Assembly (NCBI GenBank): GCA_016929595.1
Contig: JAFGIN010000029.1
Coordinates: forward strand, 1 to 56,337
DNA: 56,337 bases
From: Chitinispirillaceae bacterium
GTDB lineage: Bacteria > Fibrobacterota > Chitinivibrionia > Chitinivibrionales > Chitinispirillaceae
Direction: 5' to 3'
In this document: piece by piece, positions 21,398 to 40,171 of the stretch
Layout: every line of letters starts with the position of its first letter
Numbering within the stretch: the stretch's first letter is position 1
The notes under the pieces: generated by a model
What the model was told of the DNA's origin: nothing
Seen by the model: the letters and a program-made list of their open reading frames with translations, nothing else
Database searches by the model: none
Translations under genes and position numbers: made by a program

Positions 21398-22255
21398 ATG
21401 AGTGGCAACAATTTCCCTCCTCAGCACCAGTATCATCAACCGGGACAAAGATCTGAAATGAATCCATTACCAATTGATGAAGACAGTTCCTGGATTCCCA
21501 GTGGAAAACTAAAAGGAAAAACAGCACTAATCACAGGAGGCGACAGCGGAATTGGCAGAGCGGTATCACTCCTGTTTGCACGCGAAGGAGCTGATATCGG
21601 AATTCTTTATTATTCTGAACATGAAGATGCCAGAGAGGTAAAATACAAAGTCGAACAATACGGAAGAAAATGCATATTGATTTCCGGTGATATCGGAGAT
21701 GAAAACTTTTGCAGAGAATCAGTTACATTAGTTGTTCAGCACCTGGGTCGTCTGGATATTCTTGTAAATAATGCGGGAGAACAGCATGTTCGTGAAAAGA
21801 TTTCTGATATCCATTATCAGGATCTTGACAGAATTTTCAGAACGAATCTTTACTCTATGTTTTTTGCCGTAAGTGCCGCTCTACCCTACCTCGAGTCCGG
21901 TTCATCAATAATTAATACAACATCGATTACAGCGTATGAAGGAAATCCGGCATTGCTTGACTATTCAACAACAAAAGGGGCTATTGCAGCCTTCACACGA
22001 TCTCTTTCACTTTCTCTTTCGGATAAGAATATCCGGGTTAATTGCGTTGCCCCGGGCCCGATCTGGACACCACTCATCCCCTCTTCGTTTCCAGAAGAAA
22101 AAGTATCCCAATTTGGTAGTAATACACCTATGAAACGTGCTGGTCAACCATATGAGGTCGCACCCTGTTATCTTTTTCTTGCTTGTAATCAGGACTCGTC
22201 CTACATTAGTGGTCAGACTCTTCACCCTAATGGCGGTCAGATAGTGAATTCATAA
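21398..22255 (+). CDS. Short-chain dehydrogenase/reductase (YghA / GSP39-like)
   Basis: 285 residues, Rossmann-fold SDR. The N-terminal extension (PPQHQYHQPGQRSEMNPLP) is typical of the general-stress subfamily. Cofactor motif TGGDSGIGRA at 46-55, NNAGEQH, catalytic Ser in NTTSITAYEG and YSTTK. It ends with the usual SGQTLHPNGGQIVNS. AAAGGA precedes ATG 21398. Substrate unknown (NAD(P)-linked aldehyde or alcohol). The 3' end overlaps the convergent methyltransferase gene by 6 bp. Confidence 0.92.
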   Translation: MSGNNFPPQHQYHQPGQRSEMNPLPIDEDSSWIPSGKLKGKTALITGGDSGIGRAVSLLFAREGADIGILYYSEHEDAREVKYKVEQYGRKCILISGDIGDENFCRESVTLVVQHLGRLDILVNNAGEQHVREKISDIHYQDLDRIFRTNLYSMFFAVSAALPYLESGSSIINTTSITAYEGNPALLDYSTTKGAIAAFTRSLSLSLSDKNIRVNCVAPGPIWTPLIPSSFPEEKVSQFGSNTPMKRAGQPYEVAPCYLFLACNQDSSYISGQTLHPNGGQIVNS

Positions 22256-22993
22256 ATCCCGGCACTTTGACAATCCAGTAGCAGCAAGATACTCTTCCTC
22301 CCTTGCGTCTTTTGTATCGATCCAGTTGGTCTTCTTGCATATATATATTTCATGAGCCGGATTCGACAGCAGTGAAAAGCCACACTCCCTTAATAGAGCT
22401 TTTACTGCTGTACTGTTGGGTACCCACCAATTAGTAGGATCATCTTCAATGGAATGTTCAATGAATGCCATTTTTGGCCACCCTTTTTTACTTAATAAAT
22501 CCCTCTCTTCAAGACTGATATTTGTCCTGTTTTCATAATAATCACAATCAGGCATAGTCATAGTCTGGAATATCAGCATTTTTTTAATATGCCGGCTGAT
22601 TATGTCAAGAGCCAGTAACGGATATCTCAAATGGTATAACACCCCCATAAACCAGATCATGTCATATGATTCCTTACAACTTGCCAGATCATAAATCTGC
22701 ATTTTTTTGAATACTATAGAAGATGAGAGACCTGAAACCTGAGCTATAAATTTTGCCTGTGCAAGATAATGTTCATCACAGTCTACAGCAGTAACCTGTG
22801 CTCCCCGCTTTGCAAGTTCAAATGAATAAAAACCCGCGTTGCAGCCAATATCAAGAACACTCCAATTTGAAAGATCTGAAGGTATTCCGGAGGCGATGTC
22901 TCGCCATTTAAACAATGGGAAATCTCCCAGCGGATGGTCAGGAAAGGTTTGAATACCATTTTCTAAATGAATATTATGGAACCACGGCCCCAT
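22250..22993 (-). CDS. SAM-dependent methyltransferase (TIGR04290-like)
   Basis: 247 residues, class I methyltransferase. WFHNIHLENGIQTFPDHPLG at the N-terminus and motif I SVLDIGCNAGFYSFELAKRG (about 45-64), then AVDCDEHYL, DMIWFMGVLYHLRYPL and a C-terminal extension. It is related to the CmoA/CmoB group. I recall this N-terminal pattern from the TIGR04290 set found near glycosyltransferases. Last gene of the minus-strand glycan cassette; possible targets are a sugar hydroxyl or a lipid-linked intermediate. Confidence 0.85.
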   Translation of the reverse strand: MGPWFHNIHLENGIQTFPDHPLGDFPLFKWRDIASGIPSDLSNWSVLDIGCNAGFYSFELAKRGAQVTAVDCDEHYLAQAKFIAQVSGLSSSIVFKKMQIYDLASCKESYDMIWFMGVLYHLRYPLLALDIISRHIKKMLIFQTMTMPDCDYYENRTNISLEERDLLSKKGWPKMAFIEHSIEDDPTNWWVPNSTAVKALLRECGFSLLSNPAHEIYICKKTNWIDTKDAREEEYLAATGLSKCRDL

Positions 22994-23020
22994 TTCTGAG
23001 ATTTTTTTTTTAACTCAACT

Positions 23021-24769
23021 TCATCCATTCGTAGTCATCTCACTTAAAATTTTTAACAGATAATTTTTATAATAATCATACTTTTTATCAAAAAGAATTC
23101 CATCATAAGTACCTTTTAAGGACTCAGCAAAAAGTTTTGATATCCCGACTCTGAATGCGCAATAAGCAATTTTATTCGGGCATACTCTTTTTCTGACCGA
23201 TATGTCTCCACTTTCTTTTATATATGCATTTGTAAAATATTTCTCTTGATCATAATTAAGGTCCCATTCGATAATACCCCCGGCAATGTCCCATGCTATA
23301 TCCTGACATCCAGGAAAGAACTGATCATGATAATGATCAGTATTATCGATTTTTATGATATGGTTATCAAATTGTAACCATTTATGCAATTGCATTCTTC
23401 CATCAATTGCAGTGATGTATTTTAGATATAGATCATCAGTATACTGGTGATATACGCTTAGTTTATCCAGAAAAGCATCACCAATACTTTCTTTTATGTT
23501 AACCATAACCATTTCTCTCATGGTATCTGGAGATACAACATCACCGCCAGGAAAAGTGTTTTTCAGGAATGCTGCATACTTTGCGGCTGAGTATAGAAAC
23601 GATGTTGTTATTTCTTTTATCCATCGGTGTTTGCCCTCTACAAATTCATATTCAATAAAACCGTTTTCGTAATTTTTTACAGGTAATGACATGCCACTTA
23701 CCTGCAAAATTTCAGCTCGTCGAAAGGTCATTTCCCCATATCTGCCTAATCCTGAAAATTTTATCAAAGTCGAAGGATCATTTCTAAGTACATTCTTTAC
23801 CACCAGATATTTTCTCCTCTCATGATGAGGGTGAACAGGAGGTATTTCCGAACTGTTCATTAACAGCCTCTCCCTCCACATTCCTGCTGATAAATCAATT
23901 AATAAATCGGTATTGAGCCACCGGTGCAATTTTCCCGAATCTATCCAGACAGATTCAAATGAAGTTGACATTTTCGGATGTCGTTCCCAGTGATCACGAG
24001 CCCCCGGCGAATTCATCATAGATGAATCGGGCTCCCAACCTGGAAAAAAGAAAATATTTTTATCCTGTACTCCTAGTTCTGATAAAAATTGAGCTGTTCC
24101 TCCAAAAGAGGAACCACTCAATCCTGGACCTTCATCGGTAATGATAAAGCCCCCATTGACTCTGTTACTTACAAACGATTCCAATTCTTTTGAAACCCTG
24201 ATTTTCCTGTCGAATGGTTCTCCCCGTGGCCTGACGGTGAAACTGGTATTATCGTATCCAAGTATTGTCAGTGCAGCAGACACAATTGCAGATAATGTTG
24301 TTCCTATTGTTCTTAATCCAATAATGGTAAGTGGACGTTTACAAAATTGTTGAGCAAATTTTTTTGTTGTTTCCAGATATGTTTCCGGGAATAAGCCATA
24401 AAATGCAAACCCTTCCGAAACACCAAAAGGTACAATTTCAGGTAAACACATCTTCTTCAATGCTGAATGCATAGAATATAACTGATAAAAATAGCATCGA
24501 TCAATACGATTGTTTTCCCAGGACTGAACGAATATTTTCCCTGCCAATATAGTCATTTCACGTAACAATCGAATAGTGCTGGTAACAGAATCTTCTTCAT
24601 TGCAAACGATATCTGTCAGAGCACACTCAAGTTCTCCGCAATCAATAAGCAGTTTCACTGCGAGGTCATGTTCGATTTGTCTGTTAAAAATTGTATTTAA
24701 ACAATGTTCAATCCTCCTGATCCAGTCGTCAGTTCGGAATTCTTCTTTCTTATCTTTGAATACTATCAT
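23021..24769 (-). CDS. Predicted phosphoribosyltransferase-kinase fusion protein
   Basis: 582 residues, no named family. Residues about 145-240 look like a phosphoribosyltransferase fold: IIGLRTIGTTLSAIV at 149-163, then a PRPP-binding-type loop FIITDEGPGLSGSSFGGTAQ at 208-227. Residues about 318-582 look like an aminoglycoside-phosphotransferase/choline-kinase fold: a Gly-rich start LIKFSGLGRYGE (335-346), a catalytic-loop-like IDGRMQLHKW (455-464), and IKIDNTDH plus DIAWDIAG (473-480, 490-497) in the metal-binding and hinge positions. The N-terminal 140 residues are helical and unassigned. It overlaps the acetyltransferase gene by 4 bp, so it belongs to the cassette. A sugar-phosphate or ribosyl-phosphate transfer role is inference. 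Confidence 0.65.
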   Translation of the reverse strand: MIVFKDKKEEFRTDDWIRRIEHCLNTIFNRQIEHDLAVKLLIDCGELECALTDIVCNEEDSVTSTIRLLREMTILAGKIFVQSWENNRIDRCYFYQLYSMHSALKKMCLPEIVPFGVSEGFAFYGLFPETYLETTKKFAQQFCKRPLTIIGLRTIGTTLSAIVSAALTILGYDNTSFTVRPRGEPFDRKIRVSKELESFVSNRVNGGFIITDEGPGLSGSSFGGTAQFLSELGVQDKNIFFFPGWEPDSSMMNSPGARDHWERHPKMSTSFESVWIDSGKLHRWLNTDLLIDLSAGMWRERLLMNSSEIPPVHPHHERRKYLVVKNVLRNDPSTLIKFSGLGRYGEMTFRRAEILQVSGMSLPVKNYENGFIEYEFVEGKHRWIKEITTSFLYSAAKYAAFLKNTFPGGDVVSPDTMREMVMVNIKESIGDAFLDKLSVYHQYTDDLYLKYITAIDGRMQLHKWLQFDNHIIKIDNTDHYHDQFFPGCQDIAWDIAGGIIEWDLNYDQEKYFTNAYIKESGDISVRKRVCPNKIAYCAFRVGISKLFAESLKGTYDGILFDKKYDYYKNYLLKILSEMTTNG

Positions 24770-25743
24770 TTTTTATTAATTTGAATACTGTAATTTTGTT
24801 TAAATGTTACACCCCAGTGGTGTTTATATATTTCATTTCCTCTTAAAAAATCAAAGCGGGAGAAACCTTTTTTAAACAACTCTTCTATTGTCATGAATAA
24901 AGCTATTGTTCCAGGACTGTACTGGCTGTATAAAGGATCTAAGCCACTCAGGTAAAAATAGACACATTTCTTTTTTTTCAGAACATAATTACAGGCGATC
25001 GTCAATTCGTCCATTTTTAATGAATAAATTGATACATCATTACTCTGATATTCACTATTCAAAACATCGAAATGCATTTTTTGAATAATTTCATCATCCA
25101 AAACACCTTTAAAACCCTTTTTTTTCCATCTTTTATTATGCAATTGTATCAGTATTTCAGATGAATTACTTTGTACAAGAGATAATGTATGATACGCATT
25201 AATTGATTTTAGGGATCTATAAACGTTTTTTCTTAAATTTTTTGGTAGTACAGTGCTTACATTTTCTACATTGGCAGCATCGATAAAACTGCAATCACTC
25301 ATTTTAGATAATGTAACACGATATGATAACAGATACTTTGATAAATTCAATAATGGAGATGTATCAGGTACATCCTGTAAATAACATTCATCCCACATGT
25401 CAGAAATTGAAACTAAGAAAGAACCAACAGTTTCTGATAACAGTTGATGGTTAATATCAATATACAGGAGATCAAGATAATCTGATATACCTGAGCCGAC
25501 TAAACACAACCTTTTTTTTTGATTTGCAGTATAAATAAAAAAAGGTGCAATGCAGATAAGTTGTTGATCATTTCTGATTGTGACAATAACCAATTCACTC
25601 TTCCCGAAATTTTTCCACCAGGGTATTACCCAGAACAATCCCTGAAAAGGCGTTGCTGTTGAAGACAGGTTATACAACTTTATCCATTCAGCTGAAATCT
25701 CTTCAATCTTTTCGATTGTTGATATCAGTTCGATTTTTACCAA
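24766..25743 (-). CDS. CelD/BioF2-like GNAT acetyltransferase
   Basis: 325 residues. The pattern is that of the FemAB/CelD-type double GNAT fold: an N-terminal EISAEWIKLYN with TPFQGLFWVIPWWKNFG, a middle strand LVGSGISDYLDLLY, and the C-terminal GTIALFMTIEELFKKGFSRFDFLRGNEIYKHHWG, which carries the conserved acyl-CoA-side motif. It likely acylates an amino group on a sugar or lipid-linked glycan. It overlaps the PRTase-kinase gene by 4 bp and lies 35 bp after the GT4 gene. Identification of the fold is good; substrate unknown. Confidence 0.8.
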   Translation of the reverse strand: MVKIELISTIEKIEEISAEWIKLYNLSSTATPFQGLFWVIPWWKNFGKSELVIVTIRNDQQLICIAPFFIYTANQKKRLCLVGSGISDYLDLLYIDINHQLLSETVGSFLVSISDMWDECYLQDVPDTSPLLNLSKYLLSYRVTLSKMSDCSFIDAANVENVSTVLPKNLRKNVYRSLKSINAYHTLSLVQSNSSEILIQLHNKRWKKKGFKGVLDDEIIQKMHFDVLNSEYQSNDVSIYSLKMDELTIACNYVLKKKKCVYFYLSGLDPLYSQYSPGTIALFMTIEELFKKGFSRFDFLRGNEIYKHHWGVTFKQNYSIQINKK

Positions 25744-25777
25744 AATATAGTCCTGAAAGAATCTCAGCTCGAGTTAT

Positions 25778-26815
25778 TTACTTTGTAATCTTTTTATAGA
25801 GTTCTACATAGTTCTTTACCATTGCATCTGCGGAAAATCGCGATCGGGCAACCTCCATACATTTTGTTCTGTCTATTTTATGAACATTTAAAATTGCTTG
25901 TTCCATCTCCTCTTCTGTACTACAAATATACCCGGTTATTCCATGTTCAATAATTGAAGGCAGGGCACCTCTGTTTGAAGCTACAACAGGAGTACCGCAA
26001 AAAAGCGCTTCCATTGCCACAAGTGAGCTTGTTTCATCAATCAGACTGGGAATCAGTACACAACGAGCATTTGTCATTAATTTGATCTTCTTCTTTTTAT
26101 CAACAACTCCCGTGAACTGGTAATTTGAGTTATCGAGTTCAGGTGCAATCTTCTGATTGAAATATTTTATGTGGCTTTCATACGGAAATACATTACCAGC
26201 GATTTTCAATGGAATTCCTGATTTTTTAGCAATTCTCAGCCCGATGTCGAATCCCTTTTCTGGACAAATCCTCCCTATACACAAAATATAATCACCTTTT
26301 GTTCTTACAGGTATCCGTATACCATTTAAATCGATCCCATTGCAGATCACTGGATGGTTCTGAAATACTGGAGGAGCCTGTATTCTTTGCTGTTCAGAAA
26401 CAAAGTTAAAATAGACATTTTTAGTTTCCATCATTTTTTCAACAGGATACAATTCAATTGGAAGATGAAGCGTTACTAAAATTGGGATATCAACATCCGG
26501 CAAATAGTGATAAAAATCAACTCCATGAAAGTGGAGTATATCAATTTTTTTATGAGAAATGATCTTTTTTAATAATGGAACGACCTTCTTGTAAATCTTT
26601 ATTTTTTCTTCCTCTGTAATGAGTTTGTTACTTTCAGGAATAGCAATTAAACTGCCCGAAATTCTTGATTTCCTCGAAGCCAGTACAAAGGAATGATATT
26701 TCAATTTCGTAAGCAGTGAATCCATGGTCAAAACTATCTGCTCGGCACCTCCAGCACAATCAGTTCGCACCGGAGCAAATGGATAGGCAACTGTCAGTAT
26801 TGATAGTGTCGTCAT
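25778..26815 (-). CDS. Glycosyltransferase family 4 (GT-B)
   Basis: 345 residues. N-terminal Rossmann domain (LTVAYPFAPVRTDCAGGAEQ) and C-terminal donor domain with ILCIGRICPEKGFDIGLRIAKK, the acceptor/donor loop ALFCGTPVVASNRGALPSII and EHGITGYIC, as in retaining GT4 enzymes. It adds a sugar from a nucleotide donor. It overlaps the upstream deacetylase by 4 bp, so the two are probably translated together and may act on the same GlcNAc-containing intermediate, as in mycothiol or bacillithiol pathways (analogy only). Confidence 0.88.
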   Translation of the reverse strand: MTTLSILTVAYPFAPVRTDCAGGAEQIVLTMDSLLTKLKYHSFVLASRKSRISGSLIAIPESNKLITEEEKIKIYKKVVPLLKKIISHKKIDILHFHGVDFYHYLPDVDIPILVTLHLPIELYPVEKMMETKNVYFNFVSEQQRIQAPPVFQNHPVICNGIDLNGIRIPVRTKGDYILCIGRICPEKGFDIGLRIAKKSGIPLKIAGNVFPYESHIKYFNQKIAPELDNSNYQFTGVVDKKKKIKLMTNARCVLIPSLIDETSSLVAMEALFCGTPVVASNRGALPSIIEHGITGYICSTEEEMEQAILNVHKIDRTKCMEVARSRFSADAMVKNYVELYKKITK

Positions 26816-27573
26816 GATATGTAAAAATTTTTATCGATTTCCTGTGAAACCTTTTCAACAACAGCTCTCCATTCACTACTGCTCATACCCCAGTCCATTA
26901 TTTCATACAGTAATTTACCATTATGAGGAGGTCGACTGTAATCATAAACCGGAGCAATTCTAAAAACTTCTTTTTCTATATTGAAGATCGACAGCATTTC
27001 TTTCTGTGATACGAAACAATCGATCATCATCTTTTTTAAATTTTTATTGTATTCAGGTAAAGAAACAGTAATCATAATCCCGCTACCAATTTTAAAAGTA
27101 CCAGTTTCTATTAAACTGTTGTGTTCATGGTAACCTGAAAATTCAAAATGCCTGATATTTGTATACCCCAGGTATACTGAAAGTACCTTCAATGCCTTAC
27201 TTACAATAAACGATGCACAATCATGATCCGGGTGGCCTCCCTCATAAGAATGAGTCAGAACGACCGTTGGTCTTATTCTCCTAACCAAATGTATCACCTG
27301 TACTGTAAGACTGTATAATGATTCGATAACCTTTTGATCAACACCATTAAGCACAAAGTGATCTTCCCGATTAAAACCGCATATTGACAAGGCCTCGCTG
27401 AGTTCTTTTAATCGCAGTGATGCATACTCTTTCTGGTTTTTACAACCGGCCCTGTATGCAAATCGCATATCATCAGGAGAACCGGCCGTTAAGTGCACAA
27501 TGAATAATTTTTCAAATTCCGGAATATGACCACCAAACCCTGCAGTCTCATCATCCGGATGTGCAACAATCAA
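26812..27573 (-). CDS. PIG-L family N-acetylglucosaminyl deacetylase
   Basis: Zinc-dependent deacetylase of the LmbE/BshB/MshB type. Motif AHPDDE sits at the very start, with TAGSPDD next and THSYEGGHPDHDCASF supplying the third zinc histidine (HPDHD). From the TTG at 27573 the protein is 253 residues, but it would begin inside the first beta-strand. The same frame continues upstream as RILLIVAHPDDE, which the fold needs, up to a CTG at 27600 preceded by GAGGT. The true start is probably there. Works with the coupled GT4; likely removes acetyl from an amino sugar. Confidence 0.88.
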   Translation of the reverse strand: MIVAHPDDETAGFGGHIPEFEKLFIVHLTAGSPDDMRFAYRAGCKNQKEYASLRLKELSEALSICGFNREDHFVLNGVDQKVIESLYSLTVQVIHLVRRIRPTVVLTHSYEGGHPDHDCASFIVSKALKVLSVYLGYTNIRHFEFSGYHEHNSLIETGTFKIGSGIMITVSLPEYNKNLKKMMIDCFVSQKEMLSIFNIEKEVFRIAPVYDYSRPPHNGKLLYEIMDWGMSSSEWRAVVEKVSQEIDKNFYIS

Positions 27574-27802
27574 AAGAATTCTCTCACATTTATTTAACAG
27601 TAAAATAATTACCTCGATATTGTACGCTTATGGTAAACCTTAAGACAGCAAGCAGTACTGCATTTATTATTCCTGCAATTAAATAATACTCACTATGATC
27701 TCACTAAAGATTATCATTTTGAATCCAGTCCTTAAGAACAGGCCACCCTTAAGTGTTTAATGAGTAAATTTAAATTGCCGATGTAATAGCTACCTGAATA
27801 AT

Positions 27803-28540
27803 TCAGATCAATAGCACATTGTTATTAATAAGTAAATGGATTGCATCCCTGTATCCCTTCAATGTACCGACATCCACGTATTTTTTTCCCGCGTAAATAC
27901 CCGATACATGAGCTCCATTTTGAATATACGCATTTACCAGAGTACCAAAATACTCATCAATTCGATTACGTTTAATCCATAAGTGATACAGTTGATGAAA
28001 AATAAAACCTGGCATTTTGAAAGCGCCCCAGATCCAGTGACTCGTTATTTCTGCTTCTTTCACCTTTATCTTTGAAATGTACCCATCTTTACCAAGTTCA
28101 ACAGCATCAAAATTTTGCGGATTATCAGAAGGAAACAACAAAAATGTTAATTCACTGGACGGTAGATAACATAGAGCGTCAACCGGAAACCACAAAGTAT
28201 CAGGAAGTCCAATAATAACATCTTCATCACAGGAAATCAGAGGAGCCGCAGTAAAAACTGCATCACAGAGTCCCCTGCGTTCCTTTTGAATAACATAATT
28301 AAAATGGATCGATGAGTGCCCTTTGCCATAGTAACGTAGTATATCTGATTTTTCAGGTGATATAACCATACAGATTTTTTCAACTCCTGCTATGGATAAT
28401 CTATCAATCAGATATTCGCTGATAACTTTTGGATATTCCTTGTCGTCAAATATAACTGAGCCTACAGGAAGGAGTTCCTTGGAAAATGCTAATGGTTGTA
28501 TCCTACTCGCAGCACCAGCTGCAGGAATAATACCCCACAT
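27803..28540 (-). CDS. Sugar nucleotidyltransferase, RmlA-like
   Basis: 245 residues, NTP-transferase fold. Activation signature WGIIPAAGAASRIQPLAFSKELLPVG (G-x-G-x-R variant; the Lys of SKELLP is kept), substrate residues IIGLPDT, and the C-terminal KKYVDVGTLKGYRDAI typical of glucose-1-phosphate nucleotidyltransferases. It probably makes the NDP-sugar used in the cassette. The 230 bp after it (before the deacetylase) hold no gene. 12 bp after the CgeB-like gene. Confidence 0.85.
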   Translation of the reverse strand: MWGIIPAAGAASRIQPLAFSKELLPVGSVIFDDKEYPKVISEYLIDRLSIAGVEKICMVISPEKSDILRYYGKGHSSIHFNYVIQKERRGLCDAVFTAAPLISCDEDVIIGLPDTLWFPVDALCYLPSSELTFLLFPSDNPQNFDAVELGKDGYISKIKVKEAEITSHWIWGAFKMPGFIFHQLYHLWIKRNRIDEYFGTLVNAYIQNGAHVSGIYAGKKYVDVGTLKGYRDAIHLLINNNVLLI

Positions 28541-28552
28541 TGTTTAAACTCC

Positions 28553-29611
28553 TTATATACTTGATAAAATCGACAAAAAGTCATCAGCTCTTTTATCAGA
28601 TGTATGATCTCTAAGCACTCTATCCTTTGCAGCCTTTGCAATTCTTTCCCTTTTTGCTTCCGGAATACACAAACTGTGCACCACATCTTCAGTAGAAGTA
28701 ACAGTAATAACTTCATTGGTAACATCAAAAAAATCCCCGAATCCTTCCCAGTGATCTGAAATAATTACTACACCGCAAGCTGCAGCTTCAAAAAGTCTGC
28801 CAGAAGGACAATACCCCAATGCAGCCATTGCAGATCTCGTAATGTTGAGTGTAAATTGACATGAACAATACAATCTCGAATGTTCATGAGGTTCAATATG
28901 TTCAGAATGCATCACATTGGCAGGCCATTCAACAGATGATGGATATTGAGCTCCACAAAGTTTGAATAGTGAATCATTATATATTTTTGCAGGTTTAAAA
29001 AAGAGATTTTCCACCGCATTTTGTCTGTCAGGTGAATATGTGCCCAAATAGGACATTTTCCCCTTATCTTCATTATAATTGACAGGAAAATGTACCGATG
29101 GATCTACGCTGCCATATAATGGAAACGTTTTCTTAGCAAGTAATAATTTCTTCTGAATTTCCAGTGAAATTCCTCCTGTATAACTTAAAACAGCATCAAA
29201 ATTTCCTAATCCCTCTGATGGGATATAGAATGGAATCGTTCCGGAATAAATCAAATTAATAGTTACCGGAGTGTCCATATCGTAATATAGTTTAGCTTTT
29301 GCCTGTGACAGAGTTATCAATTTTCCAGCAGTACAAGCGTCTGGACAATATGACGTAACAATCGCTACATCTGAGCGATTCAGGACCTCATAAGCCATTT
29401 CCACAATTGATTCCCAGGATTCATAAAAAATGATCTGGATATCCTCACCGCTATAAAAATCCCGATTCTTTGCGTAATAACTGGTATCCTGCTCAAAAAA
29501 AATTATTCTGTTTCCTTTCCTTACTAATGCATTTGCAAGACCACGCCAGAGTGTTGCATGCCCGTTACCCCATGAAGAACTGATTGACAGACCAAAAATT
29601 GTAATCAACAA
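28553..29611 (-). CDS. CgeB-like glycosyltransferase (paralog 4)
   Basis: 352 residues, GT-B. N-terminal signature SSSWGNGHATLWRGLANAL followed by IIFFEQDTSYY; C-terminal donor site SGRLFEAAACGVVIISDHWEG and RDHTSDKRADDFL. It matches spore-maturation CgeB/DUF3880-type transferases. It is most similar by eye to the gene at 30568 (same SSWGNGHAT and ALHRDF/AKNRDF-type region). It overlaps the permuted glycosidase-like gene by 7 bp. Confidence 0.88.
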   Translation of the reverse strand: MLITIFGLSISSSWGNGHATLWRGLANALVRKGNRIIFFEQDTSYYAKNRDFYSGEDIQIIFYESWESIVEMAYEVLNRSDVAIVTSYCPDACTAGKLITLSQAKAKLYYDMDTPVTINLIYSGTIPFYIPSEGLGNFDAVLSYTGGISLEIQKKLLLAKKTFPLYGSVDPSVHFPVNYNEDKGKMSYLGTYSPDRQNAVENLFFKPAKIYNDSLFKLCGAQYPSSVEWPANVMHSEHIEPHEHSRLYCSCQFTLNITRSAMAALGYCPSGRLFEAAACGVVIISDHWEGFGDFFDVTNEVITVTSTEDVVHSLCIPEAKRERIAKAAKDRVLRDHTSDKRADDFLSILSSI

Positions 29612-30528
29612 AACTGGATTCCTTTTTCGGTGGCCTCAGAAACAGTACCCTTCACAATGTAACGTTTAACTACATTTTCCGCAAAAAGTGCAAATTCCGA
29701 TACATCACATGGCGGACTTGTGATTGATGCAACTTTACCTACCGATGGAGGAGTAAAGCAGAGTGTTAGTGTTACATCAAAATCTGCAAGTGCCTGCATT
29801 TGCCGATCAAACCACTCAAGACTATCTGGCCTATACCAGTCTGCCCAGCTTATTCCTGTACGAACTTTTTTAACGCCCATTTTTTTGAGCCAGTTGCAGG
29901 CGAATTCCAGTCTTGCATCCTGATAATGAAACCATTGACATATTCCCATTTCCGGGTCGAACTCTGATAAAGCCGGTTTAACTGAACCATCAGCTCGAAT
30001 CAGTCCCATGTAAAAATGACGATAATAGGAACTTCCCTCACTTTCCTTATGCCTTGTCGTTGCTTCCCAGCTTGCCGGCAAATCTAATAAAGAGTACCAG
30101 TAGATCCTTGGAACACGTCCAAGAAGTAACTCTCTGGTTTTTTTCAACCCGAAAGTCTGGATTTCATCGGCCCCAAATGTTGATGCTCCAACCTCAGTCA
30201 CCCATATCGGCAGGTTACAAACTTTTTCGATTGCCTCAATTTTTGAGGGCCACTCCTGTATCTGCCAATGATTCCAGTCTAACGGAAAACCGTGAACAGC
30301 AACTGCATCAAAATAGGGCAGCAGACCATAGCTTGATAATAATTTGATGAAATCCGGATCGACAGGAGAAATTCCCCCTAAAACAATCGTCAATGATGGA
30401 CATACATTCCTGATTGCAACTGCAGCCTGTTGAGCCATACGAGAAAAATCTTCCCATTTTTTATCTATAGTAAAATCCCAGTGTGACAGATTATTCGGTT
30501 CGTTCCAGATCTTTATAGCCTCTACCAT
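29605..30528 (-). CDS. Glycosidase-like TIM barrel with circularly permuted strand order
   Basis: 307 residues from ATG 30528 (GGGA upstream); a TTG at 30546 would add six. The first part carries the clan GH-A catalytic pattern: IKIWNEPNN (acid/base Glu10), a strand LTIVLGGISP, DAVAVHGFP, IWVTEVGAS (nucleophile Glu112) and RIYWYSLLDL. In ordinary relatives these are strands 4 to 8. Only after this comes MGICQWFHYQD (Met194), KKVRTGISWADWYRP and DVTLTLCFTPP, which correspond to strands 1 to 3. Met194 looks like an old start codon. All eight strands are present, so a working permuted barrel is possible. Stop codons just upstream exclude a hidden N-terminal half. Confidence 0.75.
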   Translation of the reverse strand: MVEAIKIWNEPNNLSHWDFTIDKKWEDFSRMAQQAAVAIRNVCPSLTIVLGGISPVDPDFIKLLSSYGLLPYFDAVAVHGFPLDWNHWQIQEWPSKIEAIEKVCNLPIWVTEVGASTFGADEIQTFGLKKTRELLLGRVPRIYWYSLLDLPASWEATTRHKESEGSSYYRHFYMGLIRADGSVKPALSEFDPEMGICQWFHYQDARLEFACNWLKKMGVKKVRTGISWADWYRPDSLEWFDRQMQALADFDVTLTLCFTPPSVGKVASITSPPCDVSEFALFAENVVKRYIVKGTVSEATEKGIQFC

Positions 30529-30567
30529 TTTTTTTCCCGGTTTCAAGGTTAATTAATGTAAAACAAT

Positions 30568-31695
30568 CTACATACCACATGAATTCTTTTCTTGAACAGC
30601 GAAAAACTGACGTCGCGTTTGCAATGCTTCTTTGTAATACAGTTCCAGTTGCGCCGCTCTGTGTGCTGCTGTGTGTTCCATCAGGATACGGTTACGAGCC
30701 CGTTCACCAATACTCTTTCGCTGGCCTTCCGGTATTTCCTGTAAAATAGTAAGTACCTCTTCAGATGAACTTGCAATCAGGATCTCTTTTTCCAATTCAA
30801 AAAACGAATCAAGCCCTTCCCAGTAATCACTGATAACTGGTGTTCCACAAGCTGCAGCCTCGAATAGTCTGACACTAGGTGCATACCCTGCTTTCATCAT
30901 ATCTGATCTTGTTAAATTCAGAGTATATCGTTGTGAGCTGTAAAATTTACTATGTCCGGGCGGCGGGATATGATCGACATGTTTTACGTTCCGGGGCCAC
31001 TCGATACAATCTGGATACTGCGGGCCCGCCACGATGAAATTTCCTCCGGGTAAGCAGAGTGCTGGTTGTATTAATAACGCATCAAGCCATTCCTGACGAT
31101 CACAGGAGTGAGTACCCATATATCCAAGATCGTAAGTCAATTCTGATGTACTATTTTCGTATCGTGTCGTATCAACTGAACAATACAGAGGTCTTACCAT
31201 AGGTGAGCCATATACTTTTTCCAGTACTTCCAGTATTGCACCCCCTGCAAATGAAAGATACATATCATACATCTGTATTAATTCATACTTTAAATAAAAA
31301 CACTCATCCTTTTCAATTTTAGTCATGGTCACCGGAGTGTCAATATCATAAAATGCAGTGATTCCCTCTGCCGTTTTAATAACCCACTCACCTACTTCGA
31401 TACCCTCAGGCACATACGATCCCACTATGACTAAATCAGCTTTTTGTATCACTGATGCATATTGCTCCCTTAGTTCCTTTACTGTTGCATACAACAATGT
31501 TTTTACATAATCAGAATCATTAAAATCTCTGTGTAATGCATACCAGGGCATATCCCTTTCCAGAAAAAGTACCCGATGCCCTTTCGATGCTAATTCCCTG
31601 ATTAATCCACGGTAGGTAGTAGCATGACCATTTCCCCAGGATGATGTAATAGTCAACCCTAAAATAACAATATCATACTGTGAAGTTACTGACAC
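30568..31695 (-). CDS. CgeB-like glycosyltransferase (paralog 3)
   Basis: 375 residues, GT-B. TSSWGNGHATTYRGLIREL then RVLFLERDMPWYALHRDF; donor side PSVRLFEAAACGTPVISDYW and MEHTAAHRAAQLE. Same family as the flanking CgeB-like genes. It begins 13 bp after the next upstream paralog ends. Inverting or retaining chemistry and donor are unknown. The cysteine-containing tail (KNSCGM) is not shared with the others. Confidence 0.88.
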   Translation of the reverse strand: MSVTSQYDIVILGLTITSSWGNGHATTYRGLIRELASKGHRVLFLERDMPWYALHRDFNDSDYVKTLLYATVKELREQYASVIQKADLVIVGSYVPEGIEVGEWVIKTAEGITAFYDIDTPVTMTKIEKDECFYLKYELIQMYDMYLSFAGGAILEVLEKVYGSPMVRPLYCSVDTTRYENSTSELTYDLGYMGTHSCDRQEWLDALLIQPALCLPGGNFIVAGPQYPDCIEWPRNVKHVDHIPPPGHSKFYSSQRYTLNLTRSDMMKAGYAPSVRLFEAAACGTPVISDYWEGLDSFFELEKEILIASSSEEVLTILQEIPEGQRKSIGERARNRILMEHTAAHRAAQLELYYKEALQTRRQFFAVQEKNSCGM

Positions 31696-31708
31696 AATAC
31701 CTCCTGTT

Positions 31709-32779
31709 TTAATTGCATAAAATTTGTTCTACTTCCCGAGCCCGATGAGAATAGGTATGTTCATGTAATACTCGCGATTGAGCTCTACGTCCAATGGCTC
31801 TGGCATACTCTTTATCCATACTTTTTATATGACGTGAAACATCTTCACCTGAACGCGCGACAAGACATTCTCTGTCCGGTTCCAGAAAGCTCTCAATTCC
31901 CTGCCATTCATCAGTAATGATACACGCCGCCGCACCGGCTGCTTCAAAAATCCTTGTAGGTGGTGAGTAGCCATAGGATGCCATACTCGATCTATTAATA
32001 TTTAATACTGTTGAGACAGAACTGTTAAACATGTTGTGTTCGTGTGTATAAACGTGTCCTAAAACTTTTACGTTATCAATGCTGTTTACATTATTCCATC
32101 CCGATCCACCAAGAAGAAACTGTTTGTTTGTGAGATTTTTAGCCACTTTCCAGAAAAATTCCTCTACACGATCCTCCCGATCGGGCATTCTGTTTCCTAA
32201 AAATCCAAGATCACCATAGAAGCGTTCATTTGGTTTCACAGAATAATGAGTTTGCGGATCTAATGCATTGTAAACGGGACAGCATTTTTTCGCACCAAAT
32301 TCCAAATATGATTTTTTTACCGGATCTCCTCCACCATATGTAAATATATAATCATACTCAGGAACCAGTTTTCTGAAATAATCATTAGCATCAGATTTCA
32401 TTCTATCCAAAGTTGCAGGTGCATCAACATCCCAGAACAAAACCTTTCTGTTACTATTTTTTAATCCAGGCATCCACGACTCCAGCAACTCATCAAAAAC
32501 ACCAACACCGCTTGCTTTAATTATGATGTCATATTCGAGTGCCCTTTTTAATGAACTGTGAACTCCTTTCTGGGTCGATGGATACACCTCTGCATTTACA
32601 AAAGATGTATCCTCAAGATCTTTGTGCTTTTGTCTATCAAAGGCATCCGGTTCAAAAAAAGTTACACTATGACCTCGTTTATTCAGAGCACGAATCAATC
32701 CCCGGTAATAGGTTGCAGCTCCATTCCAGTATGCAGACAGGATACTTGACCCGAAAAAAGCAAATCTTAACTTACACAT
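31709..32779 (-). CDS. CgeB-like glycosyltransferase (paralog 2)
   Basis: 356 residues from ATG 32779, chosen because AGGAG lies about eight bases upstream and the fold starts here; the frame is open to 32938 but that part lies inside the upstream gene. Signature ILSAYWNGAATYYRGLIRAL, SVTFFEPDAFDRQKH; donor side PTRIFEAAGAAACIITDEWQ and LHEHTYSHRAREVE. The AC of the usual ACG motif is altered (GAAAC), which may affect donor use. It overlaps the upstream paralog by 8 bp. Confidence 0.87.
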   Translation of the reverse strand: MCKLRFAFFGSSILSAYWNGAATYYRGLIRALNKRGHSVTFFEPDAFDRQKHKDLEDTSFVNAEVYPSTQKGVHSSLKRALEYDIIIKASGVGVFDELLESWMPGLKNSNRKVLFWDVDAPATLDRMKSDANDYFRKLVPEYDYIFTYGGGDPVKKSYLEFGAKKCCPVYNALDPQTHYSVKPNERFYGDLGFLGNRMPDREDRVEEFFWKVAKNLTNKQFLLGGSGWNNVNSIDNVKVLGHVYTHEHNMFNSSVSTVLNINRSSMASYGYSPPTRIFEAAGAAACIITDEWQGIESFLEPDRECLVARSGEDVSRHIKSMDKEYARAIGRRAQSRVLHEHTYSHRAREVEQILCN

Positions 32780-33911
32780 TATATGACTCCTGTTTCTTAT
32801 CAATTTGTAATGTATCACTACCAGAATCAATTTTTCTGCAGATTTCAAGTAGTTCATCAGCTCTATGCCTGCAGGTGTGTTTTTCAAGAATCGTAGTAAG
32901 CCCATGTGATGCCATTGATCTGGCAAAATCATTATCATTGATAATCATTTGCAGATACGTTTTCATTTCTTTGCTATTTCGGGCTATCAAAAAATCTTTT
33001 CCAGGTATAAATAGCTGTTCAGTATCAAACCATGGTGAACATACAAGCGGTATTCCACAAGCAAGAGCTTCAAAAACTCTGATTGTTGGTATTCCAGGCA
33101 GCTCATGAACATATGGACGTCGGGGAATATGCACGGTAACTTTGAATTGTGAAAAAATCTCTGGAACTTTGTAATTTGGTAACCAGCCCCCATACTCAAT
33201 TCCCTGTATAGTAAGTGTTTTCAATACGTGATCAGGATATCGTACACCGTACATTTTTGTATTTAATTTTTCCGATCGTACCGGCTCAATCAGGAATTCA
33301 TGCAACTCCTCAGATCGTTCCTCATCTCCCCAGTTACCGATCCAGACGACATCACCCTCCTTCAAATTATTTTCAATGGGCTTGAAAATAGTAACATCCG
33401 CAGCTTCATGCCAGACCCACACATTTTCTGCCCACCCTTTTTCGACATACAGATCAGAAAGAACCTTTCCAAAAGCAAGTACTCCATCATAATTTCCAAG
33501 ATCAAAAGCTTCAATACTTTTCATATCTGTAATTGAGCGGTGGTGAGTGTCATGAAAAAGAAGTGTATATGAGCCATGCATCTTCCTGTGAGCTCCAACC
33601 ATCGCTACCAGTTCAGGTGAATTCCACTCATGAACAATTACAACATCAGCCTCATCAAGAATTTTGTACAGATTTATTTTGTCCGGAGGATACTGACACG
33701 TAATAATATGTGGAAAAAGCCGGTGAAAACCATCAATCGCTTTTTCACCCTGAAAACATTTCAACATTTTCAGACTCCATGATTCCTCTGATTCGTAACA
33801 GATCACTGAGTGTCCCATTGACAGCAGCTCAGTAATGACTCCCCGTAAAAAATGAGCATTTCCATTATTCCAGTCACTTATCAATGAATGGACAAAAAAT
33901 ACAAAACGCAT
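32772..33911 (-). CDS. CgeB-like glycosyltransferase (paralog 1)
   Basis: 379 residues, GT-B. Signature ISDWNNGNAHFLRGVITEL and SVICYESEESW; donor side TIRVFEALACGIPLVCSPW and LEKHTCRHRADELLEI. It is the most divergent of the four paralogs. Start ATG 33911, 9 bp after the GT4 gene. The four paralogs probably add successive residues to one glycan, but this is inference from the clustering. Confidence 0.87.
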   Translation of the reverse strand: MRFVFFVHSLISDWNNGNAHFLRGVITELLSMGHSVICYESEESWSLKMLKCFQGEKAIDGFHRLFPHIITCQYPPDKINLYKILDEADVVIVHEWNSPELVAMVGAHRKMHGSYTLLFHDTHHRSITDMKSIEAFDLGNYDGVLAFGKVLSDLYVEKGWAENVWVWHEAADVTIFKPIENNLKEGDVVWIGNWGDEERSEELHEFLIEPVRSEKLNTKMYGVRYPDHVLKTLTIQGIEYGGWLPNYKVPEIFSQFKVTVHIPRRPYVHELPGIPTIRVFEALACGIPLVCSPWFDTEQLFIPGKDFLIARNSKEMKTYLQMIINDNDFARSMASHGLTTILEKHTCRHRADELLEICRKIDSGSDTLQIDKKQESYNV

Positions 33912-33920
33912 ATACGATCC

Positions 33921-34991
33921 TTAGTTTATTTTTAACATTTCATTATATATTTCAACATACCTGTCGCACATCAAATCAGCGCTGTATTTATGCGATTGTA
34001 TATTTGCTTTTCGGGCATATTCAGAGATCATTTCATTGCTTTTAATTAACCGTTCAACAGAATCTATTATTTCTTCATTATTACGAGGATTAACAAATAT
34101 AGCCGCATCACCCCAAATCTCTCGTAAACTACTGATATCACTTAAAACCAGTGCACAATTATTATACGCAGCTTCAAGTACTGATAAACCGAAAGGTTCG
34201 TATAGTGCTGTAGAAATGTAAATTGATGCTCTTTTGTACCAGGATACCATTTCAGATTCACTCAAAAGTCCTAAATGCCTTCCGCATTCTACATTCAGAT
34301 TTCCTCTTCCAGCTATATATAATGGCCATTTAAAATGCCTTGAGATTGTCGCGAGTAATTTTAAATTTTTGGCTTCATCCCAGACTCTTCCAGAAGCGAA
34401 AATGACCGGCTCCTTATCTTTATCCCCGGTGTTATGTCTTGTTCTTCCATTATAAATGACTCTTGAATTCTTTACGCTTCCATAGTGAAACTCAAGATCT
34501 GAAAGCATTGCCATAGAAGGTGAAACTACTTTTGTGGCTGATGATAATCCATTCTTCACTCTTTTTTTATATTCTCGCCAGTGTGACTCTGGTAATGTCA
34601 GTTTAACATGATTGAACCAGCTGTAAACGCAGGAATGAGCAACACATACAACAGGTACATTCCAGGGTAATGCTACGTGTGCGTAACCGTTTACATGTAC
34701 CAAGTCTGGACCATACATTTCAAATAATGATAATAGCCATTCACCAGCCTCGTCAACATCATCCCAGGGGTTTTCCATCCATTCGAGACGAAATGGTTTA
34801 TAGCAGATAGTAACATTATCAATAGAGAGCATCTGATCAAATTGTTGTTTTAAAGGTGCTTCTCCCATAACCGCAAGTATTATTTCAAAATTACTGTCTT
34901 TGAGACACTTCGCTAATTCATACACATATGTCCATACGCCTCCCATCGCATCAGCGGTCATTAGTATGCGGTTTTTACATTTCAAAGTCAT
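33921..34991 (-). CDS. Glycosyltransferase family 4 (GT-B), second copy
   Basis: 356 residues. It begins RILMTADAMGGVWTYVYELA, a Gly-rich acceptor-side loop like that of glycogen-synthase-type GT4/GT5 enzymes. The donor domain has VIFASGRVWDEAKNLKLLA, and the E-x7-E region reads STALYEPFGLSVLEAAYNN. Probably retaining. It is 7 bp after the Gfo/Idh gene. It is distinct from the GT4 at 25778 (little similarity outside motifs). Confidence 0.88.
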   Translation of the reverse strand: MTLKCKNRILMTADAMGGVWTYVYELAKCLKDSNFEIILAVMGEAPLKQQFDQMLSIDNVTICYKPFRLEWMENPWDDVDEAGEWLLSLFEMYGPDLVHVNGYAHVALPWNVPVVCVAHSCVYSWFNHVKLTLPESHWREYKKRVKNGLSSATKVVSPSMAMLSDLEFHYGSVKNSRVIYNGRTRHNTGDKDKEPVIFASGRVWDEAKNLKLLATISRHFKWPLYIAGRGNLNVECGRHLGLLSESEMVSWYKRASIYISTALYEPFGLSVLEAAYNNCALVLSDISSLREIWGDAAIFVNPRNNEEIIDSVERLIKSNEMISEYARKANIQSHKYSADLMCDRYVEIYNEMLKIN

Positions 34992-34998
34992 TTATAAA

Positions 34999-36018
34999 TC
35001 AATTACTGAATGAATAGACAGAATCTATTATTGATGCGACATCGTAGACATGTTCAATTTCACTATCAAAATTCTTTTTGTTGTATATTTTTTTCGCCCA
35101 TTCTCTTATTGCCATATCCCCCCAATTTTGTGGACTTTTGTTAAGTACAATCCGGGACGTACCATTGTATTGTTCTGTAATAAAATCATAAAATGATCCA
35201 TTAACATTTTTTATACAGATTGTTCCATGTGTTCCGTAAAACGTCCAGTTGATAACGGCATTGCACCCGGCAGAAATTTTCCATGAACTTGCAACTTTAA
35301 TCATTGTACCTGTTTCCAGTTCTATTCTTGCCTCCGCAAAATCCTCAACAGTTGATTTTAAGATTTCTTTAGTTCTGTATCCTTTCGAGTACAATGCACC
35401 TGTAACATTTTTGACTTTCGGGAATTCAAGCATCCACATCGAAAGGTCGATCAGATGTGTCCCTAAATCGATAAGACACCCTCCGCCTGAAAACTCCCTG
35501 TTATAAAACCATGCTTTATCAGGACCGTATGCATTGTGAAAGCTGCAGTCGACAGAAAAAATGGTTCCGATCTCTTTATTTTTAATAATACTCCTGGCGA
35601 TTCTCACCCCTTCAATCCATCGATATGATAAATCAACTCCAAGTGTCAAATCATTCCTTTTTGCAGTTTCGATTACCCGCTTACACTCGTTTGCATTACG
35701 TCCTAAAGGTTTCTGGCAAAAAACAGCACATCCAGATTCCAATGCTTGAATCGATTGTTCGGCGTGCATTGCGCTTGGTGTGGCAATCACGATTGCATCA
35801 GGTCGCCTCTGCAATAATTCGTGCAGCGTATCAAAACGGACACAATCTGAAGAAATTGACTGTGCTTCAAGCGCCTGCGCATCATCGGGGTCGACTATTG
35901 CAACAGGTTCAATAAATGGTTCGTTAAGAACCCCCTCCATTCTGTTTCTACCAATCCAACCTGTTCCAACAAATCCGATTTTGATATTCTTTGTATCTTT
36001 TTCAATCTGAGTTTTCAT
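34999..36018 (-). CDS. Gfo/Idh/MocA-family sugar oxidoreductase
   Basis: 339 residues. NAD-binding start KIGFVGTGWIGRNRMEG, substrate/NAD motif AVFCQKPLGRNANE with the conserved Lys, and FSGGCLIDLGTHLIDLSMWM in the C-terminal sheet as GGGCLIDLGTHLID. Such enzymes oxidise or reduce sugars, often NDP-sugars at C3 or inositols. It lies between a GT4 and a Zn-dehydrogenase, 1 bp after the latter, so the two may run sequential redox steps on one sugar. Confidence 0.9.
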   Translation of the reverse strand: MKTQIEKDTKNIKIGFVGTGWIGRNRMEGVLNEPFIEPVAIVDPDDAQALEAQSISSDCVRFDTLHELLQRRPDAIVIATPSAMHAEQSIQALESGCAVFCQKPLGRNANECKRVIETAKRNDLTLGVDLSYRWIEGVRIARSIIKNKEIGTIFSVDCSFHNAYGPDKAWFYNREFSGGGCLIDLGTHLIDLSMWMLEFPKVKNVTGALYSKGYRTKEILKSTVEDFAEARIELETGTMIKVASSWKISAGCNAVINWTFYGTHGTICIKNVNGSFYDFITEQYNGTSRIVLNKSPQNWGDMAIREWAKKIYNKKNFDSEIEHVYDVASIIDSVYSFSN

Positions 36019-36019
36019 A

Positions 36020-37033
36020 CTACATCACCACAACAGCTTTCAAAAATCCTTCAGGTCTATTCAGAGCCATTTCAAAAGCCTCCTGTATTGAATCAAAATC
36101 AAAGGTATGAGTTATCAATTCACGGGGATCCACTATCCCTTCAGACACTGCTATTAATGCTTTTTTAATTCCATTTACATAGACGTTTTCATCACGCTCA
36201 TGAGCATTGATCACATCTATGCCTTTCCAGTTCCACTCCTGGAGATCTACGGTGCGTAATCCGTCCTGATGATATCCTGCAATGACCAGCCTGCCACGAA
36301 CACGAGTAAGAGCGGATGCAATATCGAGACATGATTGTAGTCCGGTAGCTTCTATAACAAGATCACACAATTCGTTGCTGGTTATTTTTTTTACATAATC
36401 AATTACCTTGTATTTGTCATTCAATTGTATTGTCTCTGCCACGCCAATTTTTTTTGCATATGATAGCGAAGATCTCCTTTTTGAAATCGCTATGACATGG
36501 GCACCGCAATTAACCGCAAGTGCACACAGAACTGCTCCAATAAATCCAATCCCGACAATAACGACTGTCTCCCCCTTTTTTATTGAACATCTGCTGAAAA
36601 TGTTCATTGCACAACCGAATGGCTCACCGGGGAAGGGTATCCCGTCTAAATCACCTGGTAATTTAACCACGTTTTTCTCGTTAACATTGACATACTCAGA
36701 AAAAGAATTATTAGACAAGAAAGTAACTCTGTCTCCAATATTAAACAATGTAACACCAATCCCTTTTTTTTCTATAATTCCCCACCCCTCATGGCCGGGA
36801 GAACCCTCTTCACAAGGATACTTAAACCAGCTCCTTCCTTCCCACAGAGGAATATTAGATGCACATATTCCGCAACCCTGCACCTTTATTCTCACCTGAT
36901 TATCATCAGGACATCTGATTGTCTTACTTGAAATCAGTATTTTTTTGGGAGAAACAATTACCGCAGTGTTCATTTGATTTTTTTTTACATCGTTTAACGT
37001 AATCTCTTTTGATACACAACTAAATTTTTCCAC
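36020..37033 (-). CDS. Zinc-dependent alcohol/sorbitol dehydrogenase-like protein
   Basis: 337 residues, MDR superfamily. Catalytic zinc ligands Cys in GCGICASNIPLWEG and His/Glu in GHEGWG. The four-cysteine structural zinc lobe is missing. The cofactor fold is VGIGFIGAVLCALA. Start GTG 37033 is favoured by AAAGGTG six bases upstream; ATG 36973 would drop 20 non-conserved residues and has no ribosome-binding site. It probably oxidises a sugar or inositol hydroxyl. Confidence 0.88.
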   Translation of the reverse strand: MEKFSCVSKEITLNDVKKNQMNTAVIVSPKKILISSKTIRCPDDNQVRIKVQGCGICASNIPLWEGRSWFKYPCEEGSPGHEGWGIIEKKGIGVTLFNIGDRVTFLSNNSFSEYVNVNEKNVVKLPGDLDGIPFPGEPFGCAMNIFSRCSIKKGETVVIVGIGFIGAVLCALAVNCGAHVIAISKRRSSLSYAKKIGVAETIQLNDKYKVIDYVKKITSNELCDLVIEATGLQSCLDIASALTRVRGRLVIAGYHQDGLRTVDLQEWNWKGIDVINAHERDENVYVNGIKKALIAVSEGIVDPRELITHTFDFDSIQEAFEMALNRPEGFLKAVVVM

Positions 37034-37059
37034 TTCAACACCTTTTCTAAATTCAAGTT

Positions 37060-38157
37060 TTAAACAATTATATGCTCATCTTTATTCCTGGCCTGGTAAA
37101 CCCAATTGTAAACATCATCGAGACCATTCCTTACATTTACTTTAGGATACCACCCTGTCTGTCGGTTATACTTTGACACGTCTGAAACATAATACTTTTG
37201 ATCACCTGTTCTCCAGGGAGCATACTGTACAATCATCTTTTTACCATACAATTCATGGATATAATCAATTAATTCAAGAATACTGACACTATTTTCCGGT
37301 CCACCCCCGATATTGAATACATTTCTTCTTATGGTATCAATCTCGTTCCATCCAGTTATAAATGCATCGATAAGATCATTTACATGTAAAACATCTCTAA
37401 CCTGGCAGCCATCTCCATATATACAAATATCTTCGTCGTAAATAGCTTTTTTTAAAAAGTGAACAACCCACCCCTGGTCTTCATTTCCGAATTGATGAGG
37501 TCCGTATATGCAGCTCATCCTGAATACAACAGTATCTAAACCATATGTCTTTGCATAGTCAAGTACATATTGATCTGCAGCCCCCTTCGAACATCCATAC
37601 GGACTTTGAAAATCCAGCGGTCTCATCTCATCGATTCCCATTTCATCATATCCATTTGAGGCTATAACATACCTGTTATTTTTAATTTTCAAAGGAATAT
37701 CCCTTAATCCACCGTACACTTTATTAGTTGACGTCATTATTACTGGTGGATGAACACTACTGGTTCGAACTGCTTCAAGTATGTTAAGTGTACCTTTGAC
37801 ATTAACATCAAAATCGTATAGAGGATTTTCTATACTCGTTGTAACAGCTACCTGACTTGCAAAATGAAAAACGATTTTTACATTGCCAATAACTTCTTTT
37901 ATTGTATTGTAATTTCGAATATCATTAATACAGATTTTCAATCGTTCACTGTGTTCATCTGCCAACCATCTTAAATTTTTTTCACTACCGGGTCGTGACA
38001 AGTTATCATATACAATAACCGTTTCGCCCTGAAGCATCAATTGGTGCGCCAGGTTTGCTCCAATAAAACCGGCACCACCTGTTATTAAAACCGGAACGTC
38101 CCTTTTTTTTCCATTCTTTTCATTTACATTATTAAACCGGTATGTATTTGTAATCAT
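37060..38157 (-). CDS. NAD-dependent nucleotide-sugar epimerase, CDP-paratose 2-epimerase-like
   Basis: 365 residues, extended SDR. NAD site ITGGAGFIGANLAHQL, catalytic Tyr/Lys in SPYGCSKGAADQYV, and FGNEDQGWVVHFL, which matches the TEDQGW pattern of CDP-paratose (tyvelose) 2-epimerases. A 20-residue leader precedes the Rossmann strand. It overlaps the first gene of the cassette by 4 bp (ATGA). It may supply a rare sugar; substrate assignment rests on motif resemblance only. Confidence 0.9.
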   Translation of the reverse strand: MITNTYRFNNVNEKNGKKRDVPVLITGGAGFIGANLAHQLMLQGETVIVYDNLSRPGSEKNLRWLADEHSERLKICINDIRNYNTIKEVIGNVKIVFHFASQVAVTTSIENPLYDFDVNVKGTLNILEAVRTSSVHPPVIMTSTNKVYGGLRDIPLKIKNNRYVIASNGYDEMGIDEMRPLDFQSPYGCSKGAADQYVLDYAKTYGLDTVVFRMSCIYGPHQFGNEDQGWVVHFLKKAIYDEDICIYGDGCQVRDVLHVNDLIDAFITGWNEIDTIRRNVFNIGGGPENSVSILELIDYIHELYGKKMIVQYAPWRTGDQKYYVSDVSKYNRQTGWYPKVNVRNGLDDVYNWVYQARNKDEHIIV

Positions 38158-39272: not shown

Positions 39273-39411
39273 AGGTAACACTCTCTTTATTGTTTAATTT
39301 TTCTCTTTCGTAATTTAAGCAACTAATATGCCATCTGAATTTCATTATTCTATATTAATAACGTTTTTTTATTGTTGATTCTTATCTAAAATTCTTAAAT
39401 TGAGAATACGA

Positions 39412-40140: not shown

Positions 40141-40171
40141 AGACTCATTCCCCTTATTTTCATATCCCTTT

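Follow-up and report, generated by a model that had tools for sequence, protein, structure and literature searches.

Sequence comparison and structure prediction point to a widespread family of naturally circularly permuted glycosidase-type barrels in TIGR04290-linked glycan cassettes

The known natural case of a permuted glycoside hydrolase barrel is that of the GH70 glucansucrases (clan GH-H), in which the chain starts at α3 and then forms β4. Non-permuted relatives of these enzymes, GtfC and GtfD, survive, and a permutation-by-duplication model is available for them (PMC4919382, PMC11299179). PslG, a GH39 endo-β-glucanase of the Psl exopolysaccharide cluster (PDB 4zn2/5bx9), has the catalytic pair Glu165/Glu276 and is labelled covalently by a cyclophellitol-type probe (PMC11912335). 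MmpH is an endomannosidase of the mycobacterial methylmannose polysaccharide cluster that cleaves the product into new primers (PMC9883506). The open-access literature that was searched, which does not cover CAZy itself, yielded no description of a permuted family in clan GH-A; searches there on permuted clan GH-A or TIGR04290/TIGR04295 returned only GH70, GH13 MalS (permuted domains) and other carbohydrate-active enzymes.

The window, meaning the whole 56,337-nucleotide stretch of Chitinispirillaceae DNA that was analysed, carries on its minus strand an ORF with an ATG start that encodes 307 amino acids plus a stop (29605-30528). The original prediction was that this ORF encodes a glycosidase-like barrel in circularly permuted strand order. 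Its features are as follows.

29605..30528, minus strand: predicted permuted GH-A-like barrel protein, order β4-β5-β6-β7-β8-β1-β2-β3 (sequence comparison and AlphaFold2)
29950..30528, minus strand: segment A, residues 1-193, strands 4-8, with putative acid/base Glu10 and nucleophile Glu112 (alignment, model)
30499-30501, minus strand: Glu10 codon (predicted acid/base)
30193-30195, minus strand: Glu112 codon (predicted nucleophile)
29605..29949, minus strand: segment B, residues 194-307, strands 1-3 and helix 3, with invariant Arg223 on strand 2 (alignment with the ordinary-order protein L067, model)
30553..30555, minus strand (complement): in-frame TAA, nine codons 5' of the ATG

The motifs WNEPNN (with Glu10) and WVTEVG (with Glu112) lie in the first half of the ORF, and the segments GICQWFHYQD, VRTGISWADW and VTLTLCFTPP, which correspond to strands 1-3 of ordinary GH-A barrels, all lie C-terminal to residue 193. 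This arrangement, with catalytic motifs first and strand 1-3 segments last, is as predicted and is common to about 60 homologs; the residue numbers proposed for Glu10, Glu112 and Met194 (MGICQWFHYQD), and the coordinates, were also right. The upstream TAA indicates that no N-terminal half is missing, as had been argued, although the stop had been placed three codons upstream, a spacing that holds only for an alternative TTG start at 30546. Homologs align continuously with residues 1-193 and 194-291, so the N-terminus of the protein is complete.

The suggestion that Met194 is a former start codon is not specifically supported. In the alignment column of the join, only 26 of 59 permuted homologs have Met; 24 have Leu, 6 Ile, 2 Phe and 1 Val. 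L067, a 321-residue stand-alone protein of order B-A from Candidatus Laterigemmans baculatus (Planctomycetota), reads MRNR-LGICQWFHYQD at the equivalent site. Met194 is therefore not necessarily the original start codon.

The halves were exchanged at Met194, as had been proposed, and the same six proteins were used as a profile in native and in swapped order and matched to PslG. The native-order profile scored 28.5 bits and reached only residues 131-301 of PslG (β4-β8), whereas the swapped profile scored 46.9 bits and matched residues 25-301, which is the whole barrel, in a single collinear alignment. With the window protein alone, swapping improved the E value from 0.0091 to 7.5e-6, and the swapped alignment spans the re-made strand-3/strand-4 junction. 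Whole-domain similarity to GH39 was not found in chain order; the whole-barrel match to PslG requires swapping. A mixed profile of swapped and canonical (ordinary-order) proteins also reaches GH39 β-xylosidases and GH1-type β-glucosidases. By these sequence relationships, the barrel is of clan GH-A type and related to PslG/GH39.

Pfam matches of the window protein are sub-threshold only, and their scores rise only slightly after swapping. No NCBIfam model matched the protein, no GH39 model matched in Pfam or NCBIfam, and no similarity to GH70/GH13 was seen in Pfam and PDB searches. A phmmer search of PDB with L067 alone found nothing. Hermes transposase matches (E about 0.003), which appeared with the swapped single sequence, are absent from the profile search listing and were taken as chance.

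Matches of the native-order protein to Pfam and PDB are confined to strands 4-8, as they would be if the ORF encoded a truncated glycosidase comprising these strands followed by an unrelated C-terminal domain that resembles strands 1-3 by chance. However, residues 194-291 in segment B are 43% identical to residues 4-101 of L067 (43-44% for segment B against residues 4-105), and residues 1-193 are 37% identical to its residues 107-298, L067 being a single-genome sequence on a long branch. The B part of the swapped profile is also collinear with PslG, and AlphaFold2 completes one confident barrel. A truncated enzyme with a chance appendage is accordingly very improbable.

The eight-stranded barrel whose prediction had been suggested as a check is recovered by AlphaFold2 (38 homologs) with a pLDDT of 89.4 and a pTM of 0.88, each of β1-β8 being present, so that the closed barrel fold is a confident prediction. 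The strands occupy residues 4-7, 47-53, 75-79, 108-113, 142-145, 196-197 (short), 221-227 and 251-257, and a C-terminal helix begins at residue 276; the succession is β4-β8, β1-β3, α3. The model has the (β/α)8 fold of clan GH-A, and the usual chain order of that clan, β1 to β8, is found neither in this protein nor in its close homologs. Foldseek, which depends on chain order and can show only the absence of a full-length collinear match, found no TM of at least 0.5 among the 50 best PDB matches; the best, GH10 xylanase 4pmx, covers only 162 columns. Single-sequence AlphaFold2 of L067 gave a pLDDT of 33, and this protein provides no structural control.

We conclude that the window protein is almost certainly a naturally circularly permuted (β/α)8 barrel. 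The barrel is opened in the loop between helix 3 and strand 4, with the old N- and C-termini joined through a short helix-8-to-strand-1 linker. The chain begins inside strand 4 with the acid/base Asn-Glu and finishes on helix 3, and the predicted fold closes with the usual active site, comprising Arg223 (β2), Asn9-Glu10 (β4), His79 (β6), Glu112 (β7) and Trp144 (β8). Perhaps segment A of one chain instead pairs with segment B of another in a domain-swapped oligomer, the permutation having been fixed for oligomeric state or binding surface. The join sits in a linker between two large halves, and half-barrels obtained from a (β/α)8 β-glycosidase are reported to be isolable and to undergo an activation process (PMC4591997). 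However, the linker is short and the monomer model is confident, which makes the oligomer quite unlikely compared with a barrel closed within one chain.

The permuted layout is real but is not peculiar to the window protein, being common to a family. About 60 homologs with 50-73% identity all have it, and they come from at least eight phyla (Pseudomonadota, Acidobacteriota, Chloroflexota, Ignavibacteriota, Myxococcota, Gemmatimonadota, Planctomycetota and Actinomycetota), although several sources are MAGs whose phylum assignments may be wrong. Order A-B was read in 118 ORF entries, some from overlapping loci, and B-A in canonical relatives. Genome contigs contributed 51 loci, 50 with the permuted order; further homologs came from genomes of the same family as the window and from 147 plasmid records, mainly from Sinorhizobium and Rhizobium. 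In every permuted homolog, an in-frame ATG or GTG lies seven codons (eight in one) before the W of WNEPNN, and this constant position indicates that permuted proteins begin in strand 4.

The window contig belongs to a 224-contig assembly, which might raise the suspicion that the join near 29947 was created by faulty assembly or annotation. However, the junction recurs in many finished plasmids, and its identity in about 60 independent assemblies excludes the assembly error against which the original prediction had cautioned; an artefact of either kind has a negligible probability.

With a canonical-order query, and with the centre genomes counted in, the permuted form was found in 12 of 398 genomes of Pseudomonadota, 2 of 294 of Planctomycetota, 3 of 247 of Acidobacteriota and, in the phylum of the window itself, 9 of 168. 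Such a wide but thin distribution is what a cassette would be expected to show. No homologs of the permuted barrel were found in viral and phage collections. One locus (L127, G027:C117, 9100-11059) has two tandem permuted barrel genes in overlapping frames, with 50-65% identity to the window protein. An Acidobacteriota permuted homolog (L130, G1095:C76:14408-14710) has one TGA within its B segment and is possibly a pseudogene or a contig error.

The barrel gene had been placed inside a glycan cassette, and the flanking genes bear this out (22250-39281). The order is SDR2, SDR1, zinc-type dehydrogenase, Gfo/Idh, GT4, CgeB4, CgeB3, CgeB2, the barrel and CgeB1, followed by a nucleotidylyltransferase, PIG-L, GT4, a 325-aa protein, a 582-aa protein and a TIGR04290 methyltransferase that exceeds its curated cut-off.

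38154..39281, minus strand: SDR2 epimerase/dehydratase
37060..38157, minus strand: SDR1 epimerase/dehydratase, whose ortholog elsewhere has an N-terminal canonical-order barrel fusion
36020..37033, minus strand: zinc-type dehydrogenase
34999..36018, minus strand: Gfo/Idh/MocA oxidoreductase
33921..34991, minus strand: GT4-type glycosyltransferase
32772..33911, minus strand: CgeB-like glycosyltransferase 4
31709..32938, minus strand: CgeB-like glycosyltransferase 3
30568..31695, minus strand: CgeB-like glycosyltransferase 2
28553..29611, minus strand: CgeB-like glycosyltransferase 1, whose listed TTG start overlaps the barrel gene 3' end by 7 bp
27803..28540, minus strand: sugar-1-phosphate nucleotidylyltransferase
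26812..27573, minus strand: PIG-L/BshB-like deacetylase
25778..26815, minus strand: GT4-type glycosyltransferase
24766..25743, minus strand: 325-aa cassette protein, labelled GNAT-like, with no NCBIfam match
23021..24769, minus strand: 582-aa cassette protein of a family not recognised, recurrent near permuted barrels
22250..22993, minus strand: TIGR04290 (meth_Rta_06860) methyltransferase, the cassette end in the window (316.4 bits versus a cut-off of 300)

Glycosyltransferase 1 is presumably CgeB-like, a name given by recognition of its sequence; it has no NCBIfam match. Elsewhere in the window, 39694-40182 weakly matches PA2171, a family of ribosome-binding persister proteins (68 bits versus a cut-off of 190), and 42436-44646 encodes an ABC transporter nearest to the cyanophycin-associated/MsbA type, under the curated cut-offs of the families listed. 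An Azospirillum cassette (L094, 10723-14596) contains a TIGR04295 B12-binding radical SAM protein and myo-inositol-1-phosphate synthase, which may point to a sugar or inositol component of an unusual kind.

Barrels of order B-A are also found as the N-terminal domain of NAD-dependent epimerases of approximately 700 amino acids, in genome G191, Ignavibacteria G500, Rhizobium phaseoli and two further Pseudomonadota. L067 and the G191 barrel form a single collinear alignment with 41% identity. A 472-aa Acidobacteriota ORF (L135, G1130:C17:15030-15968), collinear with L067 at 31%, is a distant canonical-order relative outside the permuted clade. On the Xanthomonas sacchari plasmid NZ_CP010410.1 (L092, 10828-14084), a canonical barrel-epimerase gene is split over two frames within strands 1-3, by a frameshift or a sequencing error.

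In a tree of rearranged sequences, which has a long stem and a root placed on the fused group, all 59 permuted proteins group together with 100/100 support, and L067 and the canonical fused proteins branch outside this clade. These sequences suggest that the permutation is an old event, apparently of single origin, that became fixed in a widespread family. The standard model of circular permutation is a tandem duplication from which the outer halves are then lost. Here, the gene for a stand-alone canonical barrel, located just after the TIGR04290 methyltransferase gene, would have been duplicated and trimmed in this way, and the product would have spread with the cassette. The L067 gene directly follows a TIGR04290 methyltransferase gene, with a 16-base overlap counting the stop codon, and of the 47 permuted loci with sufficient flanking sequence, 36 have their barrel gene immediately after that methyltransferase gene; the simplest reading is therefore permutation in place within the stand-alone lineage. 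Tandem copies exist, as in the two permuted genes of G027. This route, which the original prediction had put forward, fits the layout, but no fused intermediate (A-B-A, B-A-B or B-A-B-A) was found in 146 loci. Duplication of the stand-alone canonical gene is probably the source of the permuted form.

Asn9, Glu10, His79, Glu112, Trp144 and Arg223 are invariant in an alignment of 38 diverse permuted homologs. We take their positions, on β4, β6, β7, β8 and β2, to be those expected for clan GH-A. Asn9-Glu10 at the end of β4 and Glu112 on β7 are the Asn-Glu and Glu of that clan, and in the mixed-profile search both glutamates are matched to the Asn-Glu and Glu motifs in PslG. The window protein is likely to be an active retaining glycosidase or transglycosidase, judging from these conserved residues.

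In Ignavibacteria (L123, G500:C31), the cassette has the order of the window where it was read, differing in that a canonical barrel is fused to SDR1 and the methyltransferase gene precedes the permuted barrel. The SDR1-fused canonical barrel (6336-8450) has lost its nucleophile Glu, the motif being WITAAG in this one genome, and an intact permuted barrel lies about 8 kb downstream (16674-17636). In this single genome, it looks as though catalysis had passed from the fused to the permuted copy. Fusion to SDR1 might alternatively suggest that the barrel is a catalytically dead glycan-binding or scaffold subunit of the cassette epimerase, and the fused copy without a nucleophile, with a permuted copy also present, speaks for this. 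That role is unlikely for the permuted proteins, because all those aligned keep both glutamates together with Asn9, His79, Arg223 and Trp144.

The permuted barrel is likely cytosolic, since no signal peptide was seen by eye in the members read. The protein would trim or re-prime an oligosaccharide built by the glycosyltransferases, epimerases and methyltransferase of the cassette. This trimming or priming role on a methylated glycan is suggested by analogy with MmpH, and we propose it tentatively. The database name "beta-xylosidase" is an automatic annotation and an unsupported label. The explanation as a whole, that of a permuted GH-A-type barrel related to PslG/GH39, of single origin and predicted to act as a cytosolic trimming or priming enzyme, seems to us a good deal more probable than its rivals.

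On balance, we lean toward regarding these proteins as the first natural permuted family of clan GH-A, in which one old permutation within the cassette replaced a stand-alone canonical barrel that survives in a genome of Planctomycetota, the canonical paralogs being fused to epimerases. If so, a before-and-after pair showing how barrels get rewired would be available, together with a new CAZy-type family that is cytosolic and acts on a biosynthetic methylated oligosaccharide. A naturally permuted catalytic barrel is seldom caught together with non-permuted relatives in one kind of gene cluster, and this would be a second, independent permuted glycosidase case besides GH70, in another clan and with an almost identical helix-3 cut. 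Whether the helix-3 loop is a preferred opening point of (β/α)8 barrels, and how permutation affects activity, stability and oligomeric state, are testable now with a comparison set of canonical L067, epimerase-fused barrels and permuted proteins. Family HMMs, in both Pfam and NCBIfam, miss the permuted family.

MmpH resembles the permuted barrel in that its gene lies beside glycosyltransferase and methyltransferase genes, and it serves as a model for the proposed role; however, its glycan is different, and the likeness is a functional analogy only. The epimerase-fused canonical barrels (for example, Rhizobium phaseoli WP_064830242) are homologous over the full barrel at about 28-37% identity and share the TIGR04290 cassette and the catalytic motifs, but have the ordinary strand order and are fused to SDR1. 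PslG, the best structure-bearing sequence relative after the swap, likewise has Asn-Glu on β4 and Glu on β7, and its gene, too, lies in a cluster for polysaccharide synthesis (PMC11912335). The PslG chain is larger, carries a signal peptide and runs in the ordinary strand order, whereas the permuted proteins show no signal peptide and are encoded beside CgeB-like transferases and the TIGR04290 methyltransferase. GH70 shares with the permuted family a nearly identical cut site and surviving non-permuted relatives, and differs in clan, catalytic residues, size and accessory domains. The GH70 cut is one helix earlier: a GH70 chain starts with α3 and continues to β4, whereas the window chain starts in β4 and ends with α3.
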